Assembly (NCBI RefSeq): GCF_009696275.1
Contig: NZ_VUMI01000032.1
Coordinates: forward strand, 1-64,000
DNA: 64,000 nucleotides
Source: Eisenbergiella porci
Lineage (GTDB): Bacteria; Bacillota; Clostridia; Lachnospirales; Lachnospiraceae
Reading direction: 5' to 3'
A program made the position numbers and the translations under genes. The notes beneath the pieces are model-generated. The model ran no database searches. It was not told where the DNA came from and saw nothing but the letters and a program-made list of their open reading frames with translations. This document shows positions 49,688 to 60,916 of this stretch, in pieces. The first letter of the stretch is position 1. The number at the start of each line of letters is the position of its first letter.

Positions 49688-49880
49688 AAATTGCAGGACG
49701 GCTGGTTTCCCAGGCGTCATTGTTTAGTGCCTGAGTGTCCGCACAAGAATAATACATGTGTTTCTGTGGAAGACACAACAGGCAAGAAGGTCAGTTTTTA
49801 AAAAAACAGCCATTGCTGTCGCTGGACTGTATTACTCAGAAGGAACAATGGCCAGTACAAACAGAAAAGGAGTGTTTCAG

Positions 49881-50792
49881 TTGACAAAATACGTTGTAAA
49901 GAGAATCCTTCTCGCAATAGTAACCATACTGATTGTCTGCGGTATCACATTCTTTGCCATGAATGCGATCCCCGGAGGACCTTTCGATGGTGAGAAGGCA
50001 GTATCCCCGGAGGTTAAAGCAGCTCTGGAAAAAAGGTACAATCTGGATAAGCCCATACCTGAACAATTTGTGATCTATATGAACAACCTGCTTCACGGAG
50101 ACTTTGGAATTTCCACCAAGACAGGCCGTGATATTAAGACTCTGATCTTCGAATCCTTCCGGGTTTCTGCAAAGCTTGGAGGCATGGCGATTCTGGTCGC
50201 TCTTGCGTTAGGTCTTGTTTTCGGCAGCCTTGCGGCTTTGACGAGAAATAAGCTTCCTGACCGTTTGATTATCTTTTTTTCAACCCTGTTTACGTCCCTG
50301 CCCAGTTTCGTGTTTGCCACGATGCTGTTGCTGGTGTTCTGTGTCCAGCTGAAGTGGATACCGGTATGGGATGCCAATCATCAGAATTATATCCTTCCGG
50401 TCATTGCGCTGGCAGCATATCCAATGGCTTATATTACGCGTCTTACCAAGACCAGCATGCTTGACGTTATGGGACAGGATTATGTCCGTACGGCGAGAGC
50501 GAAAGGCGTTGCCCGCTGGAAGGTTATCTTTAAGCATACATTAAGAAATGCCCTGATTCCCGTTATCACTTATGTGGGACCGATGACGGCATCCATTCTG
50601 ACAGGTTCCCTTGTTGTGGAGAAAATCTTCACCATCGGCGGACTCGGCGCGAAATTCGTAGACGGCATCACTAACCGTGATTATCCCATGATTATGGGTA
50701 CGACCATTTTCCTGGCGGTACTGATGGTAACCATGAATTTAGTGACGGATATTGTCTACAAGCTTGTAGACCCCCGTATTAAACTTGATTAA
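49881..50792 (+). CDS. oppB: Oligopeptide ABC transporter permease OppB
   Basis: Membrane permease of a peptide importer, about six TM helices. N-terminal TKYVVKRILLAIVTILIVCGITFFAMNAIPGGPF is typical of OppB/DppB; the EAA loop reads YVRTARAKGVARWKVIFKHTLRNALIPV. Start taken as TTG 49881 (303 aa) because AAAAGGAG lies 9 nt upstream and OppB proteins begin here. ATG 49848 with AGAAGGAA is an alternative that adds 11 residues. First gene of oppBCDF-oppA. Confidence 0.92.
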   Translation: MTKYVVKRILLAIVTILIVCGITFFAMNAIPGGPFDGEKAVSPEVKAALEKRYNLDKPIPEQFVIYMNNLLHGDFGISTKTGRDIKTLIFESFRVSAKLGGMAILVALALGLVFGSLAALTRNKLPDRLIIFFSTLFTSLPSFVFATMLLLVFCVQLKWIPVWDANHQNYILPVIALAAYPMAYITRLTKTSMLDVMGQDYVRTARAKGVARWKVIFKHTLRNALIPVITYVGPMTASILTGSLVVEKIFTIGGLGAKFVDGITNRDYPMIMGTTIFLAVLMVTMNLVTDIVYKLVDPRIKLD

Positions 50793-50806: not shown

Positions 50807-51886
50807 ATGGATAAAGTAAAAAATATAGATGAAATGCCGAAAAAGTCTCCTTTGAGCTTACAGATAGATTTAAAGAAATTTGAGAAAGCTACAGAGGAAG
50901 AGAAGAAGCAGCAGGATGTCATGAGCGAATCCGTTTCCTTCTTCCGTGACGGCATGCGTAAATTGATGAGGAATCCCCTTGCGGTAGGCAGTATTATCGT
51001 CCTTTTGCTTATCGTTGCAATGATTCTGATTGTACCTCATGTAGTGCCGTATTCTTATTCCCAGATCATTTCCGTAAATGGCAAACGTGACAAGACCGCT
51101 TCCAATATGGCGCCCTTCCAGTATTCTGATAAGGAACAGGCCTATATCGCAGAAGGCGGAAAGGTATTCCCTCATATTATGGGTACTGATGAAATGGGCC
51201 GTGACTACTTTGTACGTGTTGTTTATGGTACCAGGGTTTCACTGACGGTAGGTGTGTTTGCCGCAATTATCGTTCTGATAATAGGCGTGCTGTATGGAAG
51301 TATTTCCGGTTATTTCGGCGGCAAGACCGACCTTATTATGATGCGTATTGTAGATATTATATATTCCCTTCCAGATATGCTGATGGTAGTATTGCTTTCA
51401 GTCGTACTCCGTGAGGTGCTGAATGTGGATCAGTTCCCGGTGCTGCAGAAGATAGGTACGAATATGATTTCCCTGTTTATTGTATTCGGACTTCTGTACT
51501 GGACAGGTATGGCAAGACTTGTACGCGGGCAGATCCTAACAATCAAACAGAATGAATATGTTCTGGCGGCCAAGGTCAGCGGAGCAAAATCAGGCAGAAT
51601 TATCCGCAAGCATATCCTGCCCAACTGCATCAGTGTTATCATTATTTCCGCAGCCCTGCAGATTCCGTCCGCAATTTTTACGGAGTCCTTCCTGAGCTTT
51701 ATCGGTCTGGGCGTTCAGGCTCCCATGCCTTCTCTTGGTTCCCTGGCCAATGCGGCTAGAGCGGGTATCAGCGTATATCCTTACAAGCTGATTTTCCCGT
51801 CCCTGCTTATCTGTCTGATTACCCTGGCTTTCAACCTGCTGGGTGATGGTCTGCGTGATGCATTTGACCCGAGATTAAGGAGATAA
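50807..51886 (+). CDS. oppC: Oligopeptide ABC transporter permease OppC
   Basis: Second permease, 359 aa. Charged cytosolic N-terminus (about 60 residues), first TM VGSIIVLLLIVAMILIVPHVV, a periplasm-side loop with HIMGTDEMGRDYFVRVVYGTRVSLTVG, EAA loop YVLAAKVSGAKSGRIIRKHILPNCISVIII and the GVQAPMPSLGSLANAAR segment, all OppC/DppC hallmarks. ATG after AAGGAGGAGG. 14 bases after oppB. Confidence 0.95.
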   Translation: MDKVKNIDEMPKKSPLSLQIDLKKFEKATEEEKKQQDVMSESVSFFRDGMRKLMRNPLAVGSIIVLLLIVAMILIVPHVVPYSYSQIISVNGKRDKTASNMAPFQYSDKEQAYIAEGGKVFPHIMGTDEMGRDYFVRVVYGTRVSLTVGVFAAIIVLIIGVLYGSISGYFGGKTDLIMMRIVDIIYSLPDMLMVVLLSVVLREVLNVDQFPVLQKIGTNMISLFIVFGLLYWTGMARLVRGQILTIKQNEYVLAAKVSGAKSGRIIRKHILPNCISVIIISAALQIPSAIFTESFLSFIGLGVQAPMPSLGSLANAARAGISVYPYKLIFPSLLICLITLAFNLLGDGLRDAFDPRLRR

Positions 51887-51890
51887 TAAA

Positions 51891-52898
51891 ATGAGTGATA
51901 ATATACTTTCGGTAAAAGATCTTCGTACCTCCTTTACAACTGATAATGGGGAGGTAATGGCTGTAAACGGTATTTCTTTTAATCTTGACAAAGGGAAAAT
52001 CCTGGGTATTGTAGGAGAATCCGGATCCGGGAAATCCGTTACGGCATATTCAATTATGCGCATCCTTGAGAGCAACGGCAGCATTAAGGGCGGCCAGGTG
52101 CTCTATAAAGGAGAAGATGTAACTAAATTTTCAGAAAAGAAGATGAGGGAGTTCCGCGGTAAATGCTGTTCCATTATTTTCCAGGATCCCATGACCAGCC
52201 TGAATCCCGTATTCACCGTGGGCAACCAGCTTCGGGAAGCGATTGAGCTTCATACGGACAGAAAAGGTAAAGAGGCGGAAGCGCGTGCCGTGGAAATGCT
52301 CACCCTTGTGGGTGTGAATGAACCTGAAAAGCGTGTAAAGCAGTATCCTTACGAACTTTCCGGCGGTATGCGTCAGCGTGTCATGATCGCCATGGCGCTG
52401 GCATGTGAACCGGATATCCTGATCGCTGATGAACCGACTACTGCTCTGGATGTTACCATTCAGGCGCAGATACTGGAACTGATGCAGGAACTGCAGAAGA
52501 AGCTGGGAATGGCGATTATCATGGTAACCCATGATCTGGGTGTTATTGCAGATATGTGCGATGAAATTATCGTTTTGTACGGCGGACGTGTGTGTGAAAG
52601 AGGTACGGCAGAAGATATTTTCTATCGCCCTTGTCATGAATATACGAAGGGGCTTCTGCGTTCCATCCCGAACGTGGACAGAATCGGTGAAAAGCTGATC
52701 CCGATTCCGGGTACTCCCATTAACCTGCTGAATATGCCCAAGGGCTGTGCTTTCTGCCCCCGCTGTGAAAATGCCATGAAGATCTGTATTGAGGAGGTTC
52801 CCCAGGAAATGCAGATGCCTGACGGACATTACGCATCCTGCTGGCTGAATGTGAAGGCCGCAATGGAGGCGGAGCAAGGAGGCAGAAAACATGAGTAA
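51891..52898 (+). CDS. oppD: Oligopeptide ABC transporter ATPase OppD
   Basis: 335 aa. Walker A GESGSGKSVTAYSI, signature LSGGMRQRVMIAMAL, Walker B ILIADEPTTALDVT, H-loop VTHDLGV, and the C-terminal OppD/DppD region with a Cys cluster (CAFCPRCENAMKIC) that may bind an Fe-S cluster in relatives. ATG after AGGAGATAATAAA. Its stop overlaps oppF. Confidence 0.95.
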   Translation: MSDNILSVKDLRTSFTTDNGEVMAVNGISFNLDKGKILGIVGESGSGKSVTAYSIMRILESNGSIKGGQVLYKGEDVTKFSEKKMREFRGKCCSIIFQDPMTSLNPVFTVGNQLREAIELHTDRKGKEAEARAVEMLTLVGVNEPEKRVKQYPYELSGGMRQRVMIAMALACEPDILIADEPTTALDVTIQAQILELMQELQKKLGMAIIMVTHDLGVIADMCDEIIVLYGGRVCERGTAEDIFYRPCHEYTKGLLRSIPNVDRIGEKLIPIPGTPINLLNMPKGCAFCPRCENAMKICIEEVPQEMQMPDGHYASCWLNVKAAMEAEQGGRKHE

Positions 52899-53877
52899 AG
52901 AAGCAAAAACAACGAATAAAAGCGAATATCTGGTTGAGGTCAAGGATCTCAAACAGTATTTTCCCATAAAAGTCGGTTTCATGAAAACTATTCCCTTAAA
53001 AGCGGTGGATGGCGTATCCTTTGCTATCAAACCCGGTGAAACACTGGGAATGGTAGGTGAATCCGGCTGCGGCAAGACGACGGTAGGACGTTCTCTTTTA
53101 AGACTGTATACGCCCACCGGCGGAGAAGTATTTTATAACGGGGAAAAAGTGGATGGTTCCACCGTCAGGCATATGAGAAAAGAAATGCAGATGGTATTCC
53201 AGGATCCCTACTCATCCCTGAATCCCCGTATGACGGTAGAGGATATTATCGGAGAGCCTCTGGATGTACACAAGCTCTATACCTCCCGGGGAGAACGCCG
53301 TGACAAAATCATCAACCTGATGGAACTGGTCGGGCTGAATGCGGAGCATGCTACCCGTTATGCTCATGAGTTCTCGGGCGGACAGCGCCAGCGTATCGGC
53401 ATTGCAAGGGCGCTGGCAACGGATCCCAAATTCATTGTCTGTGATGAAGCGGTCAGTGCGCTTGACGTTTCCATTCAGGCGCAGGTTATTAATATGTTTG
53501 AAGAACTGCAGGAGAAGTTGGGCGTTGCATATCTGTTTATCGCCCACGACCTGTTGGTAGTGCATCATATTTCAGACAGAATTGCAGTTATGTATCTGGG
53601 AAGAATCGTGGAGATTGCGGATTCCAACGAACTCAACGAGAATCCGATCCATCCCTATACCCAGTCGCTTTTAAGCGCAGTGCCTTATCCTGATCCGAAA
53701 ATGGCAAGGGAAAGGCATCGTATCGTGCTGGAGGGAGATGTACCAAGCCCGCTGCATATGCCCAGCGGATGCGCATTCCGCACTCGCTGTAAGTATGCAA
53801 CAGAGCAGTGTGCAAAGGAATGTCCTCCCCTGACAGACAGAGGCGACGGACATCAGGTTGCATGCTGGAATAAATAA
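52891..53877 (+). CDS. oppF: Oligopeptide ABC transporter ATPase OppF
   Basis: 328 aa. Walker A GESGCGKTTVGRSL, signature FSGGQRQRIGIARAL, Walker B FIVCDEAVSALDVS, H-loop IAHDLLVVHHIS, C-terminal oligo_HPY region with CAFRTRCKYATEQCAKECPP. Start overlaps oppD by 8 bp with GCAAGGAGG upstream. After the stop a strong hairpin without T-run (53884-53918) separates it from oppA. Confidence 0.95.
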   Translation: MSKEAKTTNKSEYLVEVKDLKQYFPIKVGFMKTIPLKAVDGVSFAIKPGETLGMVGESGCGKTTVGRSLLRLYTPTGGEVFYNGEKVDGSTVRHMRKEMQMVFQDPYSSLNPRMTVEDIIGEPLDVHKLYTSRGERRDKIINLMELVGLNAEHATRYAHEFSGGQRQRIGIARALATDPKFIVCDEAVSALDVSIQAQVINMFEELQEKLGVAYLFIAHDLLVVHHISDRIAVMYLGRIVEIADSNELNENPIHPYTQSLLSAVPYPDPKMARERHRIVLEGDVPSPLHMPSGCAFRTRCKYATEQCAKECPPLTDRGDGHQVACWNK

Positions 53878-53918: not shown

Positions 53919-54089
53919 AAGCATAAATATTGTAAGAAGGGCTGATAACCGCATTTTTTTTGCCGGAACCGCCTTTTTTCTGCAATATTTATCCTGTTTT
54001 TCAAATTTTGATACAATTTGTTCTTTCTTTTCTGTAAAGGACGTTGTATAATAAACCGTATCTATTATTATTCATGGGAGGAAATGATT

Positions 54090-55895
54090 ATGAAGAAAAA
54101 GTATCTGGCATTAGCGCTGGCTGCTTCCATGGTTGTAAGTGCCCTGGCCGGATGTGGTTCCAATAACGCATCTACCGGTGATACCCCTGCAACTACAGCA
54201 GATACCACCGCAGAATCTTCAGCTGAAACAACAGCAGCAGAAGAATCCACCGTAGCAGAAGAAGCAGGAACGACCGCACATGGCCCGTCCAGCGAAGCAG
54301 CACCTGCTTGGGAGCAGTATGATGAAAGAATCGCTGCAATCAGACTGGAAACAGATCTGGAGAAGCGTGAAGCGCTTATGCATGAAGCAGAAGACGAGCT
54401 GATGAGCACATGGGCTGTTATTCCGCTTTACTATTATAATGATGTTTATCTTCAGAAGACTGATGTAGAAGGTATCTATGCTAACCTGTTTGGTTTCAAG
54501 TATTTTGGATTTGCAACCACACCTACCAATACGCTGGCACTTCAGATTTCATCTGAACCCAACAAACTGGATCCGGCTCTGAACTCTACAGTAGACGGTG
54601 CATGCCTTGCAATCCTGGCTTTCTCCGGATTGTTCATGTATGATGAGAATGGACAGCTTACACCCGATCTTGTAGATACATATGAGATGTCAGAAGATGG
54701 CCTGACCTATACCTTCACTATGAAGGACGGTCTGAAATGGTCCGATGGCACAGAGCTGACTGCCAAAGATGTTGAATACAGCTGGCAGAGACTTGCTAAT
54801 CCTGATACAGGAGCTGACTATGCATACCTGACCACCGTTATTAAGACTAAAGATGACGGAACTCTGGATGTTGCTGCTTCTGAAGACGGCAAGACCTTTA
54901 CCGTAAACCTTGTAGCTCCTTGTGCATACTTCCTTGACCTGTGTGCATTCCCTGCATTCTATCCTGTTCCTCAGGCTAACATCGAAAGCGCTGAAGGATA
55001 TGCTGAGAACCCGGGAGCATGGTGTACAGAAGCTGGCTTCGTATCCTCTGGCCCGATGGTTTGTACAGGATGGAAGCACAATGAATCCATGACTTATGAG
55101 AAGAACCCTAACTACTATGCAGCTGACAGGGTTTCTCTTGAAAAAATTGAATTCATGCTCAGCAGCGATGATACAGCTATTTACAATGCATTCAAGGATG
55201 GTTCCCTGCAGTTCTCAGATACTATCGCAACAGATATGATGGCAACTGTTAAGGATACACCTGAATTCCACAAGATTCCTACTCTGGGAACATACTACTG
55301 TGGATTCAATGTTAATAGTGATCTGTTCAAGGGCAAGACCATTCAGCAGGCAGCTGATATGAGAAAAGCTCTGAGTCTGTTAATCGACCGTCAGTATATT
55401 GTTGATACAATTGCCCAGGCTGATCAGGAAATCGCCAATACCTTCATCCCTACCGGAATGTCTAATGGTAACGGTGGTGAATTCAGAAAGAATGATGATG
55501 CTTATACCTATCCTGTAGAAGATAAAGTTGGTTATTATGACCCTGAACTGACAGACGCTAATATTGAAGAAGCTCAGGCTCTTCTTGAAAGCGCTGGATA
55601 TGTATTTGATGAAAACGGCATGCTGTCCCCTGAAACTCCTATCAACATGACATACCTTACCAACGATTCCGAAGGTAACGTAAAGATTGGTGAAGCTATT
55701 CAGCAGGATCTTGCAGCTATCGGTGTTAATGTGACTGTTGAGACTCGTGAGTGGTCCGTATTCCTTGATGAAAGAAAGCAGGGACAGTTCGACTTCTGTC
55801 GTGAAGGCTGGCTGGCAGACTACAATGACCCGATCAACATGCTGGAAATGTGGGAAACCGATTCCGGTAACAACGATATGCAGTTTGGTAGATAA
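54090..55895 (+). CDS. oppA: Oligopeptide-binding lipoprotein OppA, apparently circularly permuted
   Basis: Solute-binding lipoprotein (SBP_bac_5), 601 aa. Signal peptide with lipobox ALAGC (Cys22), then a Thr/Ala/Glu linker to about residue 73. Residues about 74-143 (YDERIAAIRLETDLEKREALMHEAEDELM..., then PLYYYNDVYLQKTDVEGIYANLFGFKYFGF) look like what is normally the C-terminal end of OppA proteins. Only after that, from about 145, comes the usual N-terminal core (LQISSEPNKLDPALNSTVDGACL), and the chain ends at WETDSGNNDMQFGR, where family members usually continue with the YDALI... tail. No second tail follows the stop. Start: ATG after GGGAGG. Confidence 0.85.
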   Translation: MKKKYLALALAASMVVSALAGCGSNNASTGDTPATTADTTAESSAETTAAEESTVAEEAGTTAHGPSSEAAPAWEQYDERIAAIRLETDLEKREALMHEAEDELMSTWAVIPLYYYNDVYLQKTDVEGIYANLFGFKYFGFATTPTNTLALQISSEPNKLDPALNSTVDGACLAILAFSGLFMYDENGQLTPDLVDTYEMSEDGLTYTFTMKDGLKWSDGTELTAKDVEYSWQRLANPDTGADYAYLTTVIKTKDDGTLDVAASEDGKTFTVNLVAPCAYFLDLCAFPAFYPVPQANIESAEGYAENPGAWCTEAGFVSSGPMVCTGWKHNESMTYEKNPNYYAADRVSLEKIEFMLSSDDTAIYNAFKDGSLQFSDTIATDMMATVKDTPEFHKIPTLGTYYCGFNVNSDLFKGKTIQQAADMRKALSLLIDRQYIVDTIAQADQEIANTFIPTGMSNGNGGEFRKNDDAYTYPVEDKVGYYDPELTDANIEEAQALLESAGYVFDENGMLSPETPINMTYLTNDSEGNVKIGEAIQQDLAAIGVNVTVETREWSVFLDERKQGQFDFCREGWLADYNDPINMLEMWETDSGNNDMQFGR

Positions 55896-55941
55896 TCATA
55901 TAGATTACCACTTCTGGATATGTGATTGAATAATTAAAGGG

Positions 55942-55977
55942 CCTGTGCGCTGTGTGCGGCGTACAGGTTCTTTTTTT
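55942..55977 (+). terminator. Terminator after oppA
   Basis: CCTGT-G-CGC / GCG-GCGT-ACAGG stem followed by TTCTTTTTTT. Confidence 0.75.
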
Positions 55978-56479: not shown

Positions 56480-58657
56480 ATGACAGGAAATAAAACAGAA
56501 GCCAGAAAACTTAAGGTGCTGGGCCTGATGGAAGAACCCAGCTATGTCCCTATGCGTGAAAAGGAACTTGCCTGCATCATGCTGGTAGAGCCGGAGGATC
56601 GTCCCGAATTCAAAAGGATCCTGCAGGAGCTCCTTTCAGAAGGGAAAATTCAAATTAATAAAAGAGGAAGATATTCTAAACCTGAACAGCAGCTTTTGAC
56701 GGGGGTTTTTACCAGCCATCAGAAGGGATTCGGGTTTGTGCAGATAGACGGGCGGGAAGAAGACCTTTATATCCCTGAGGATTGTGTTAATGGTGCGTAT
56801 CATCTGGATACGGTAGAAGTACGCCTGCTTCCCGGACAGCATGGACAGAGACAGGAAGCGGAAGTATGCCGTATTATAGCAAGAGGTATGTCCAGTGTTG
56901 TTGGGACCTATCAGAAGAGCCGCAGCTTTGGATTCGTCATCCCTGATAACAGTAAGCTGCCTTCGGACATCTTTGTATCCCAGGAACGTTCCAAAGGGGC
57001 TGTGAGCGGTTCAAAAGTCGTTGTGGAAATCACTGATTATGGCGGAAGCCGCCGGAAAAGCCCGGAGGGAAAAGTGGTTGAAATACTTGGCCACATCAAT
57101 GATCCCGGCGTTGATATTATGTCCATTGTAAGAAGCTTTGATCTTCCGGAAGGTTTCCCGGAGAAGGTGATGAATCAGGCGCAGCGCTGCGGTACTGAGG
57201 TTACGGAAGCAGACCGGGCCGGAAGGCTTGATCTGCGGGAGTTGACTATGGTAACCATTGATGGTGAAGATGCCAAAGATCTGGATGATGCAGTAAGCCT
57301 GGAGAGGGATGGAGAGAATTATTGCCTGGGCGTCCATATCGCAGATGTCTCCAACTATGTGCAGGAAAATTCCGCATTGGACAGAGAAGCCTTAAAAAGA
57401 GGCACCAGCGTGTATCTTGTGGACAGGGTAATCCCCATGCTCCCGCATGCACTGTCCAATGGTATCTGTTCGCTGAATGAAGGAGAGGACCGCCTTGCTT
57501 TGAGCTGCCTTATGACGGTAAACCATAAAGGAGAAGTGGTGGATTACCGCATAGCTGAAAGCGTTATCCGTGTGGACCGTAGGATGACCTACACAAGTGT
57601 TGCAAAAATTCTTGAAAAGGAAGACCCGGAGGAATGTGCAGCTTATGAAGAACTTGTTCCTATATTCCGGGATATGGCTTATTTGTCTTCCGTAATCAGA
57701 GAGAGGCGCCGCCGCAGAGGAGCAATTGATTTTGAGTTCCCCGAAAGTAAAATAATCCTGGATCAATCCGGGCATCCGCTGGAGATAAAGCCTTATGAAC
57801 GGAATACGGCTACTAAGCTGATTGAAGATTTTATGCTGCTGGCCAATGAGACGGTAGCACAGCACTTTTACTGGCTTCAGACGCCGTTTGTTTACCGGAC
57901 CCATGATAATCCGGATCTGGAAAAGGTGCACCGTCTCAGCCTTTTTATCAATAATTTTGGTTATACCATGAAGACGGGGCAGGAAGAGATACACCCGAAG
58001 GAACTGCAGAAGCTCCTGGATAAGGTGGAAGGGACGCCGGAGGAGGCGCTGATCAGCAGACTGACGCTGCGCAGCATGAAGCAGGCGAAGTATACAACGG
58101 AATGCACGGGCCATTTTGGACTGGCGAGCCAATATTACTGTCATTTTACATCTCCCATACGGCGCTATCCGGATTTGCAGATTCACCGCATCATTAAGGA
58201 GCAGCTTCGCGGGAGGCTGGATGAAGACAGAACGGCACACTACCAGCAGATTCTTCCCCAGGTGGCAAAGCAGTCAAGCCAGCTGGAACGGAGGGCGGAT
58301 GAAGCTGAACGTGAAACTGACAAACTGAAGAAAACAGAATATATGGAACAGCATGTGGGAGAGATTTATGAAGGCGTGATTTCAGGTGTGACGGCCTGGG
58401 GACTCTATGTGGAGCTGCCTAATACCGTGGAGGGCCTGGTTCATGTATCCATGCTGCCCGGGGATTATTACTATTATGATGAAGCCGCCTGCGAGATGCG
58501 GGGAACCCAGACCGGGAAAGCATATAAGCTGGGAGAAAAGTTGAAAGTAAAAGTGAAATTTGCGGACAGGTTTACACGGACTATAGATTTTGTCCTGCCG
58601 CATGAAGAAGAGGGGATTGACGATGGCGAAGGAAGCACAGAAACTGGTTGCCAATAA
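56480..58657 (+). CDS. rnr: Ribonuclease R
   Basis: Processive 3'-5' exoribonuclease that works with SmpB/tmRNA. 725 aa. N-terminal winged helix and two cold-shock domains (FTSHQKGFGFVQIDGREEDLYIP, YQKSRSFGFVIPDN), central RNB domain with TIDGEDAKDLDDAVSLE (metal-binding Asp residues), and a C-terminal S1 domain (GEIYEGVISGVTAWGLYVELPNTVEGLVHVS). ATG 56480 is chosen by AGAGGAGTT; the upstream in-frame ATG 56396 lacks a site. Overlaps smpB by 35 bp. Confidence 0.95.
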   Translation: MTGNKTEARKLKVLGLMEEPSYVPMREKELACIMLVEPEDRPEFKRILQELLSEGKIQINKRGRYSKPEQQLLTGVFTSHQKGFGFVQIDGREEDLYIPEDCVNGAYHLDTVEVRLLPGQHGQRQEAEVCRIIARGMSSVVGTYQKSRSFGFVIPDNSKLPSDIFVSQERSKGAVSGSKVVVEITDYGGSRRKSPEGKVVEILGHINDPGVDIMSIVRSFDLPEGFPEKVMNQAQRCGTEVTEADRAGRLDLRELTMVTIDGEDAKDLDDAVSLERDGENYCLGVHIADVSNYVQENSALDREALKRGTSVYLVDRVIPMLPHALSNGICSLNEGEDRLALSCLMTVNHKGEVVDYRIAESVIRVDRRMTYTSVAKILEKEDPEECAAYEELVPIFRDMAYLSSVIRERRRRRGAIDFEFPESKIILDQSGHPLEIKPYERNTATKLIEDFMLLANETVAQHFYWLQTPFVYRTHDNPDLEKVHRLSLFINNFGYTMKTGQEEIHPKELQKLLDKVEGTPEEALISRLTLRSMKQAKYTTECTGHFGLASQYYCHFTSPIRRYPDLQIHRIIKEQLRGRLDEDRTAHYQQILPQVAKQSSQLERRADEAERETDKLKKTEYMEQHVGEIYEGVISGVTAWGLYVELPNTVEGLVHVSMLPGDYYYYDEAACEMRGTQTGKAYKLGEKLKVKVKFADRFTRTIDFVLPHEEEGIDDGEGSTETGCQ

Positions 58658-59090
58658 TAAAAAAGTTTTTCATGATTATTTCGTGGAAGAGAAATATGAA
58701 GCCGGCCTGGTGCTGCACGGAACGGAGGTAAAATCACTCCGTATGGGTAAATGCAGCATCAAGGAGGCATTTATCACCGTAGATAAGGGCGAAGTATTCA
58801 TAAATGGAATGCATGTCAGCCCGTATGAAAAAGGAAATATTTTTAATAAGGATCCGCTCCGGGTGAGAAAGCTGCTCATGCATAAGGCGGAAATTATGAA
58901 GCTGACCGGAAAGGTTGCGGAAAAAGGTTACACTTTAATGCCGCTCCAGGTATATTTCAGGGACGGAAGGGCTAAAATTGAAATAGGCCTTTGCCGAGGC
59001 AAGAAAATGTATGATAAGCGGCAGGATATTGCTAAAAAGGATGCCAGAAGGGATACGGAGAGGGAATTCAAGGTGAAGAATCTTTATTGA
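58623..59090 (+). CDS. smpB: SsrA-binding protein SmpB
   Basis: Binds tmRNA and delivers it to stalled ribosomes. 155 aa: NKKVFHDYFVEEKYEAGLVLHGTEVKSLRMGKCSIKEAF, EVFINGMHVSPYEKGN, and C-terminal basic KKMYDKRQDIAKKDARRDTEREFK. ATG 58623 is chosen by GAGGGG 8 nt upstream. The tmRNA gene follows directly. Confidence 0.96.
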   Translation: MAKEAQKLVANNKKVFHDYFVEEKYEAGLVLHGTEVKSLRMGKCSIKEAFITVDKGEVFINGMHVSPYEKGNIFNKDPLRVRKLLMHKAEIMKLTGKVAEKGYTLMPLQVYFRDGRAKIEIGLCRGKKMYDKRQDIAKKDARRDTEREFKVKNLY

Positions 59091-59566: not shown

Positions 59567-60793
59567 TTAGGATATATCTTGAGCAAACTTCTGGTATTTA
59601 TCGCGTATGGATGGCGTATCTTTTAAACCCATAGCCTTTAGCCATTCCGTGTAACCGGGTAAGGATTCTGAAACATTTTCATTCATGCTAATTTGTCTTT
59701 CAAAATAATCATCAATAATATTGTCCACACGCTGTCTTTCCTCAGAAAAGGTTTGCATGTATGTTTTCTTCATAACAGCATCTGTTTTCCAACCTCCCCG
59801 TTCCTGCGCATATTTATCCGGTATTTTTAGCATGGCCATGACAGATGCGTTTACGTGACGTAAATCATGAAAGGAAATATGCGGAAGATTATTTTTCTTA
59901 AGTAATCGGCTGAACTTATTGGAAACAGCTTTTCCGCTCATCGTGACAAGCTGGTCAGTCTGCACGTTGTCTATAAGCAGCTTTATATACGATGGAATAC
60001 GATGGCGGCGGGTCCGAGTATATTCTTTAGCCTGTTTTTTCGAAATGTCCTTTCCACCCACATGTACTACCACTTCAACTATAGTAATATAGTCACCCTG
60101 GATGGACTTTGACTTTGTAAGTCCCTTTATTTCTGATATGGTAAAACTTAGCCACATAGCCAGCAAAACAGGCAGTTCAATTTCTGTACCATGCACCACA
60201 TTAAAAATAACTTCAGGAGGAATCAGCTCTTTAATATGATTTACTTTTGCAGGCAATTTTACATCAGTACTAAGTTTAGGATGATATAGGCCTAAAACTG
60301 CTGTAAGCAGGCCATATTCGTTCGAAACAGTTTTTGGTGATATTGGCTGCCCCTTGCTTCTTTTGCTCGTAGATGGGCGTTTAGACTCCTTATTAACGGC
60401 TTCCTTCAGCTTTTCATTGGTTATATCCCGGATCCGCAGATCCATTAAATCTTGAAATCCATTATCACGAATAATTTCGTAGCCTTTTATTGTGGTTGGA
60501 GATAAAACAGCGTCAGAGTCTGATATATATTTATTGATAGCATCACGAAGCGTCATTTTGGTGTACTGGTGACTTTTTTTAGACTCCAAAAAGTCAAGAG
60601 CCGCCTTTTCTGCATCCAGTTTACCAAAACGAGACGGATCGTCAGAAGTAAAGGACTCATAAATTCTCTTCTGCTTTTGCTTTCCGGTTTTCGGGTCGAT
60701 GATAGGATTGCCGTTTGCATCGAAGAGCATTTCTGTGTGACTGTAGGCCTGACAGCGCCAGGAACCGGATGGTAATTTTTTTGCTGTTGGCAT
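59567..60793 (-). CDS. Tyrosine recombinase/integrase
   Basis: Site-specific integrase of the element inserted in ssrA, 408 aa. N-terminal AP2-like/SAM-like DNA-binding parts (SGSWRCQAYSHTEMLFD, then LRDAINKYISDSDAVLSPTTIKGYEI), and a C-terminal catalytic domain with FHDLRHVNASVMAML (HxxR), ERGGWKTD and a nucleophile Tyr in KKTYMQTF. The usual first Arg (GLRxSE) position reads LSFTISEIKGL, so that Arg appears to be Thr. ATG chosen by AGGAGG TATACCT; the longer frame to 60829 has no site. Convergent with ssrA. Confidence 0.92.
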   Translation of the reverse strand: MPTAKKLPSGSWRCQAYSHTEMLFDANGNPIIDPKTGKQKQKRIYESFTSDDPSRFGKLDAEKAALDFLESKKSHQYTKMTLRDAINKYISDSDAVLSPTTIKGYEIIRDNGFQDLMDLRIRDITNEKLKEAVNKESKRPSTSKRSKGQPISPKTVSNEYGLLTAVLGLYHPKLSTDVKLPAKVNHIKELIPPEVIFNVVHGTEIELPVLLAMWLSFTISEIKGLTKSKSIQGDYITIVEVVVHVGGKDISKKQAKEYTRTRRHRIPSYIKLLIDNVQTDQLVTMSGKAVSNKFSRLLKKNNLPHISFHDLRHVNASVMAMLKIPDKYAQERGGWKTDAVMKKTYMQTFSEERQRVDNIIDDYFERQISMNENVSESLPGYTEWLKAMGLKDTPSIRDKYQKFAQDIS

Positions 60794-60916
60794 AGGTATA
60801 CCTCCTAAAATTTTGTATAAAAATAACACCTGTACAGGTGCCGTAGGTTTGTGGTAAAATAATCTTGTTGAGGGATGCTTTACCGGCCTTCGGGCCTGTA
60901 CAGTATTCAGTTAATT

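Follow-up and report, generated by a model that had tools for sequence, protein, structure and literature searches.

Natural circular permutations of proteins are usually viewed as old events, the steps of which have been lost. Described cases include the DNA methyltransferases, saposin/swaposin and the transhydrogenases, and the routes considered are duplication with intermediates, or fission and fusion, with independent fusions suggested for the transhydrogenases (PMC3320104, in the sections consulted). Among solute-binding proteins (SBPs), Tp0684 (TpMglB-2) of Treponema pallidum is the closest precedent that we found, and the only naturally permuted example found in the open PMC literature as covered here. 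It is a circularly permuted glucose-binding protein, proposed to represent a 'Cluster Bc', in which strands that lie near the N-terminus of E. coli MglB are placed near the C-terminus, and homologues with this topology have been reported in Gram-positive and gut bacteria (PMC4990184). No permuted OppA/DppA-type protein was recognised among the titles and opening lines of abstracts in the open PMC literature, a scope that leaves subscription journals and bioRxiv outside; in the text covered, the PMC papers that contain both 'circularly permuted' and 'OppA' or 'oligopeptide-binding' use them without relation to each other.

Like Tp0684, the protein examined here is a natural, circularly permuted binding lipoprotein and belongs to a probable ABC importer. 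It differs in family, Tp0684 being a cluster B sugar binder, and in that the sections of PMC4990184 considered describe no repeated switching between topologies. Within its own family, the protein shares its core (residues 149-595), its tail (residues 74-136) and an Opp/Dpp-type operon with the cluster C/SBP_bac_5 proteins DppE (8ay0) and OppA (8are), both of which we take to be from Bacillus subtilis. In DppE and OppA the tail, which in this family comprises a helix, a YYYN strand and the return to lobe 1, comes after the core, whereas in our protein it comes before it. The gene lies in a 64-kb stretch of DNA, hereafter the window, directly behind the two permeases and two ATPases of an Opp/Dpp-type operon, as identified by Pfam; an initial sequence-only reading likewise placed the gene in a complete opp operon. 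The features are as follows, with block boundaries taken from our own alignments (tail about 72-143, junction about 141-150, core 147-601).

49758..50792, + strand: oppB permease (Pfam BPD_transp_1 and its N-terminal domain)
50807..51886, + strand: oppC permease (Pfam BPD_transp_1, OppC_N)
51891..52898, + strand: oppD ATPase (Pfam ABC_tran, oligo_HPY)
52891..53877, + strand: oppF ATPase (Pfam ABC_tran, oligo_HPY)
54076..54081, + strand: GGGAGG, ribosome-binding-site-like (read from sequence)
54090..54155, + strand: signal peptide and lipobox LAGC (sequence)
54156..54302, + strand: low-complexity Ala/Thr/Ser/Glu linker, residues 23-71 (sequence)
54303..54518, + strand: displaced OppA-family C-terminal tail, residues 72-143 (phmmer to DppE and OppA; dN/dS)
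54510..54539, + strand: junction of old C-terminus to old N-terminus, residues 141-150 (alignment; dN/dS)
54528..55892, + strand: OppA core, residues 147-601, ending ...SGNNDMQFGR (Pfam and PDB-sequence matches)
55893..55895, + strand: stop TAA at the permutation break (sequence)
55936..55973, + strand: terminator-like hairpin, 17 pairs, then a T run (sequence)

The OppA-type reading frame (54090-55895, + strand) runs from an ATG at 54090 to the TAA at 55893-55895 and encodes 601 amino acids. Its lipobox, LAGC at residues 19-22, was called with what we take to be the usual pattern, and on that pattern Cys22 is the expected lipidated residue. SBP_bac_5 covers residues 190-595 (profile positions 2-367 of 368; 267 bits against a cut-off of 32.4), and no other SBP family in Pfam gives a match at E up to 1, which places the protein outside the cluster B sugar binders. 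The SBP_bac_5 model is described as 'Middle' and matches the core alone; the swap is therefore invisible in that match, and annotation can miss it.

The swap appears when the whole protein is searched against PDB sequences. On DppE, the core (residues 149-595) falls at 24-444 and the block in front of it (residues 74-136) at 450-512 (i-E 3.9e-7), so that two segments in swapped order cover nearly the whole of the 521-residue chain. In OppA, residues 147-597 align to 20-450 and, weakly, residues 79-139 to 459-519 (i-E 0.036). The sequence-only reading had claimed that a block of about residues 74-143 corresponds to the last 70 or so residues of the family, and had advised searching tail and core separately. 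A tail-only search (residues 64-147) bears this out, matching DppE 449-512 (E 5.5e-9), OppA 8are 457-519 (E 7e-4) and two further OppA sequences (E 0.02), while the core finds the part of that chain just before it. Seven of the eight sequences that reach E 1 or better are family members, aligned near their C-terminal end and not, as a conventional protein would require, at the N-terminus of ordinary OppA proteins; the eighth is VMS1 (E 0.2), presumably not a relative. Because core and tail align in swapped order on DppE and OppA, the family tail stands at the front of this protein, and the stop falls right after SGNNDMQFGR, where the core ends and the tail should begin.

A frameshift or assembly slip hiding the usual tail after 55895 was considered and rejected. 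Over all six frames of the window, with pieces down to 12 aa considered, the tail profile scored 125 bits for this copy and no more than 6.3 bits (E 1.3) for anything else, which gives no sign of a tail concealed behind the stop. More broadly, an assembly or annotation artefact, for which we found no supporting point, would mean that independently made assemblies all went wrong in one way: the same order was seen in 32 of the 46 loci of a genome-contig scan, including a complete Lachnospiraceae genome (AP025576.1) and isolates of Eisenbergiella tayi and Blautia caecimuris. We regard it as refuted. The remaining loci of that scan comprise five canonical ones and nine that are partial or distant and were left unclassed. 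The permuted proteins are 46-89% identical to that of the window, and one further carrier, Murimonas intestini, comes from a record flagged as contaminated.

Wider sampling gave 57 permuted and 47 canonical distinct oppA sequences. Core and tail, located separately in the reading frames, split these cleanly into tail-before-core and tail-after-core, and no frame carrying both tails was found among those examined. In a survey of the family, 39 of 397 genomes had a match at E <= 1e-105, 27 of them permuted (our own included) and 12 canonical, topology being called from where the match begins in the query and, where the locus itself was not read, from the match range. Surveys of the order and class, at E <= 1e-90, gave matches in 9 of 295 and 19 of 391 genomes respectively. 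A survey of the phylum, at E <= 1e-85, gave 4 of 348, the three besides our own having canonical-type match ranges; the four surveys overlap in genomes. Both topologies occur under one genus code, g304, in which all four genomes match, one permuted and three canonical. Canonical L212 is distant there (44% identity), and over the core the permuted L213 is more like G351, which has a different genus code (74% versus 68-69%). An in-frame TAG breaks one permuted gene, L163 (G271), the operon of which is otherwise complete.

The nearest canonical orthologues are 45-58% identical to the window protein over the core. In these orthologues the same two segments follow each other conventionally, and the gene usually occupies the same place in the operon. 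On a single solved protein the two segments of the window protein align in swapped order with almost no gap between them, and many species share the permuted arrangement. Circular permutation fits for each of these reasons, and the interpretation offered at first reading, that OppA is naturally permuted with its C-terminal tail at the N-terminus, is supported by these sequence comparisons. A domain added or recruited to the front of a truncated OppA, with no permutation, is by comparison so improbable as to be hardly worth entertaining: no point in its favour was found, and the block matches the very C-terminal segment of the family that this protein would otherwise lack, lies almost next to the core in the solved chain, is similar to the tails of canonical orthologues and holds its position in all 57 sequences. 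Furthermore, the moved tail is under strong purifying selection. Across nine permuted sequences including the window's, pooled dN/dS (NG86, our own script) was low in the tail (0.051) and core (0.078) and higher in the junction (0.24) and in the signal and linker (residues 1-71; 0.27), with synonymous sites near saturation in core and tail (dS 1.4-1.9).

In most loci with flanks, both topologies sit after oppB-oppC-oppD-oppF, many short loci showing part of the operon only. In one locus oppA comes first (L162), in another D and F lie on the other strand (L141), and in a third a second, dissimilar B/C/D/F set lies downstream (L039). Two further genes of the clade, one canonical and one permuted (L154, L178), adjoin dissimilar, Dpp-like permease and ATPase genes; the binding protein may therefore change transporter. 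Gemmiger formicilis has two tandem canonical oppA genes after oppBCDF (L063 7820-11626, L065 7835-11516), and tandem copies therefore do occur. The genome that holds the window encodes four other SBP_bac_5 proteins (contigs C67, C56, C139 and C98), all distant from the window protein (best local match 38% over about 90 residues). Further along the window, an ORF at 59567-60829 on the minus strand resembles a tyrosine-recombinase integrase, immediately preceded by an smpB-like gene at 58590-59090, both identified by eye only. The two topologies coexist as orthologues beside the same type of transporter gene, up to 72% identical over core plus tail in the closest pair (L166/L056), and the origin of the permutation, its reversal, its neutrality and the effect of shifting the tether are therefore directly addressable.

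Beyond what was first proposed, the permutation does not look like a one-off event, as permuted and canonical orthologues are interleaved on trees of both oppA and oppBCDF. A first careful oppA tree (core plus tail, 67 rows) has four changes of topology, at least three of them forced by starred branches, and a quick tree of 104 oppA sequences (without L163) has nine, at least five forced. A careful core-only tree of 68 rows, for which 15 rows of the largest permuted group were thinned out and L163, L177, L141 and L001 left out, the window copy being kept as row W, has seven changes, at least four forced (6-7 across bootstraps). Since trees without any oppA were wanted, oppB, oppC, oppD and oppF were also combined. 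The quick version, with 81 rows after omission of those with fewer than three of the four genes (including L159, L164, L177, L178, L154, L077 and L106), has six changes, at least five forced. A careful version, with 65 rows hand-picked to cover the groups (37 permuted and 28 canonical), likewise has six, at least five of them forced by starred branches (6-6 across bootstraps). Shuffling the labels on the 65-row tree gave about 21 changes; topology is therefore strongly inherited between switches.

Nesting is clear on the oppBCDF tree for the permuted pair L199/L213, which lies inside a largely canonical clade, and for the permuted L160, L161, L162, L166, L172 and L175, which share a clade with seven canonical genes. 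A single permuted clade was rejected both by oppBCDF (dlnL 598) and by the oppA core (dlnL 213, p 3e-5), the tested group having been named after seeing the tree, which the AU test ignores. Interleaving together with this rejection means that one permutation is insufficient, and that there were repeated permutations, reversions or both, a claim based on the trees of one operon.

These switches involve essentially one break, ...GNNDxQ(F/L)G(K/R) followed by (x)nAPxWxxYD.... The same final residue, ...G(R/K), is shared by 55 of the 57 intact permuted sequences; L180 and L174 extend a few residues past it, and the interrupted L163 was left out of the count. At this point canonical relatives show G(K/R/V/L/T) and, a few residues further on, in most cases a motif resembling APxW; the tail of many permuted proteins starts with this motif as well. 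Junction lengths vary between permuted groups. Such a uniform stop, with a similar loop linker in canonical proteins, would be easier to understand if each form had arisen once. An ancestor might have had one oppA of each topology next to each other, their cores homogenised by gene conversion, with one or the other copy lost at random; this would explain the identical break and shared loop motif after one permutation only, and the tandem Gemmiger copies provide a parallel in relatives, although each is a pair of canonical genes. Both copies would nevertheless have to outlast many splits and then vanish in all sampled genomes. No clade locus examined has both forms or a second close copy, and each of the 39 matching genomes of the family survey has one match only at that survey's threshold. 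We consider this explanation unlikely.

Tail sequences point instead to change within the orthologous gene. The tails of nested permuted proteins are on average closer to those of canonical sisters than to those of other permuted proteins (mean identity 0.66 versus 0.59; 0.57 versus 0.51). For L064 the tail is likewise closer to canonical sisters (0.56 versus 0.49), whereas the core is not (0.51 versus 0.52). With 57 rows compared and each protein's own group set aside, the nearest tail is canonical for eight of ten nested permuted proteins, as for L199 (82% to L153) and L172 (74% to L145); in the case of L162 and L175 it comes from a permuted protein. This also argues against the spread of a once-permuted oppA between lineages by transfer of that gene alone, which would make the patchiness horizontal. 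L154 and L178, beside their dissimilar B/C/D/F genes, indicate that oppA can move, and L064, L157/L158 and L169 are placed differently in the oppA-core and oppBCDF trees. The two trees nonetheless agree on the two main mixed clades, and the core itself rejects one permuted clade, making oppA-only transfer a very unlikely account of the pattern.

The order of events was considered on the best oppBCDF tree, with a canonical root state. At equal costs six changes are needed; without reversal, ten permutations are required, and with a single permutation, seven reversals. The twelve commonest bootstrap outcomes printed gave 5-6 changes, 8-12 without reversal, and 7-9 reversals after one permutation. 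A two-way, two-state Markov (Mk) model fitted better than one with gain only (lnL -23.8 versus -27.4) and placed the ancestor of the mixed clade in the permuted state at 0.99. Permutation without reversal is therefore disfavoured. The direction of each individual switch is unsure because the backbone branches that decide between gain and loss are partly weak.

Several relatives close to the switches were searched for intermediates. Matches were found in 12 of 145 genomes related to G351, one of them new (G1038, canonical), in 11 of 145 related to G137 with nothing new, in one of two in the genus of G042 (G042 itself, permuted) and in nine of 48 in the genus of G380, all nine canonical. No duplication or double-tail intermediate was found in the loci examined. 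In loci L029-L197 there was no double-tail ORF, and a second tail match above 9 bits occurred in four: the Gemmiger tandem copies L063 and L065, L154 (14 bits, in a nearby ORF taken as another SBP) and L045 (12.8 bits, taken as chance). Among L198-L221, a second match occurred only in L198; it scored 17 bits and fell in an ORF of 113 aa that lies at the stretch's edge and that we take for the end of another SBP.

Taken together, the comparisons of sequence make it very probable that the window gene encodes a working, permuted binding lipoprotein of an oppBCDFA operon, rearranged in place, in a gene that has switched topology several times at one break, with the usual two-lobed cluster C fold and peptide binding both predicted. 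From its N-terminus, the chain comprises a signal peptide, a flexible tether, the old C-terminal segment, a short junction, the old N-terminal core and the stop. The clade concerned consists of relatives within the class, mostly Lachnospiraceae; the oppBCDF tree gives a minimum of five switches in it, and the oppA trees a minimum of three to five. Our favoured path would begin with tandem duplication of oppA, followed by in-frame fusion or deletions and trimming at flexible linkers, to end with a stop where the conserved GNNDxQxG(K/R) loop finishes. It follows the permutation-by-duplication model covered in PMC3320104. Unlike the cases covered in the sections of that review consulted, oppA switches among orthologues of one operon, in one clade and at one breakpoint, and no intermediate was found. 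Repeated gain or reversal of the permutation at one point of this gene of gut bacteria suggests an unusual natural experiment in protein evolution.

The consequences for the fold can be considered on AliD, in which lobe 1 is formed by domain I (29-63, 191-296 and 583-617) and domain II, and lobe 2 by domain III (297-582) (PMC11192437). The three segments of domain I agree with the earlier proposal that the natural termini lie in the same lobe, from which it had been argued that a permuted chain could fold. Residue 593 of the window protein falls on position 492 of the AliD chain in 8qlc, or about AliD 517 if that chain begins near residue 26. From these limits and this alignment, the old termini would meet in lobe 1, linked by the junction, while the new termini would open a loop of domain III, and the lipid tether would therefore enter through lobe 2 instead of lobe 1. 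The linker has a median of 43 residues in 46 permuted proteins, compared with 23 in 25 canonical rows (including two repeats), and a long linker could absorb the tether's change of lobe.

We lean slightly towards a stronger reading, in which the oppA of this clade would be a recurrent and reversible permutation hot spot. Without leaving its locus, the single-copy gene would have gone back and forth between the two topologies five times or more, always at the same break and presumably by way of transient tandem copies. The permuted form would have its tether on the other lobe and could dispense with the lipid anchor. By pattern, the lipobox is absent from 12 of 58 permuted proteins (L038, L040 of Blautia caecimuris, L053, L062, L048, L054, L074, L077, L106, L164, L175 and L180) versus one of 26 canonical rows (24 distinct), and this lone canonical miss, L141, has a Cys that the pattern overlooked. 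Several of the permuted proteins without a lipobox have an AxA-like end to the signal, and the twelve are spread over several groups of the tree.
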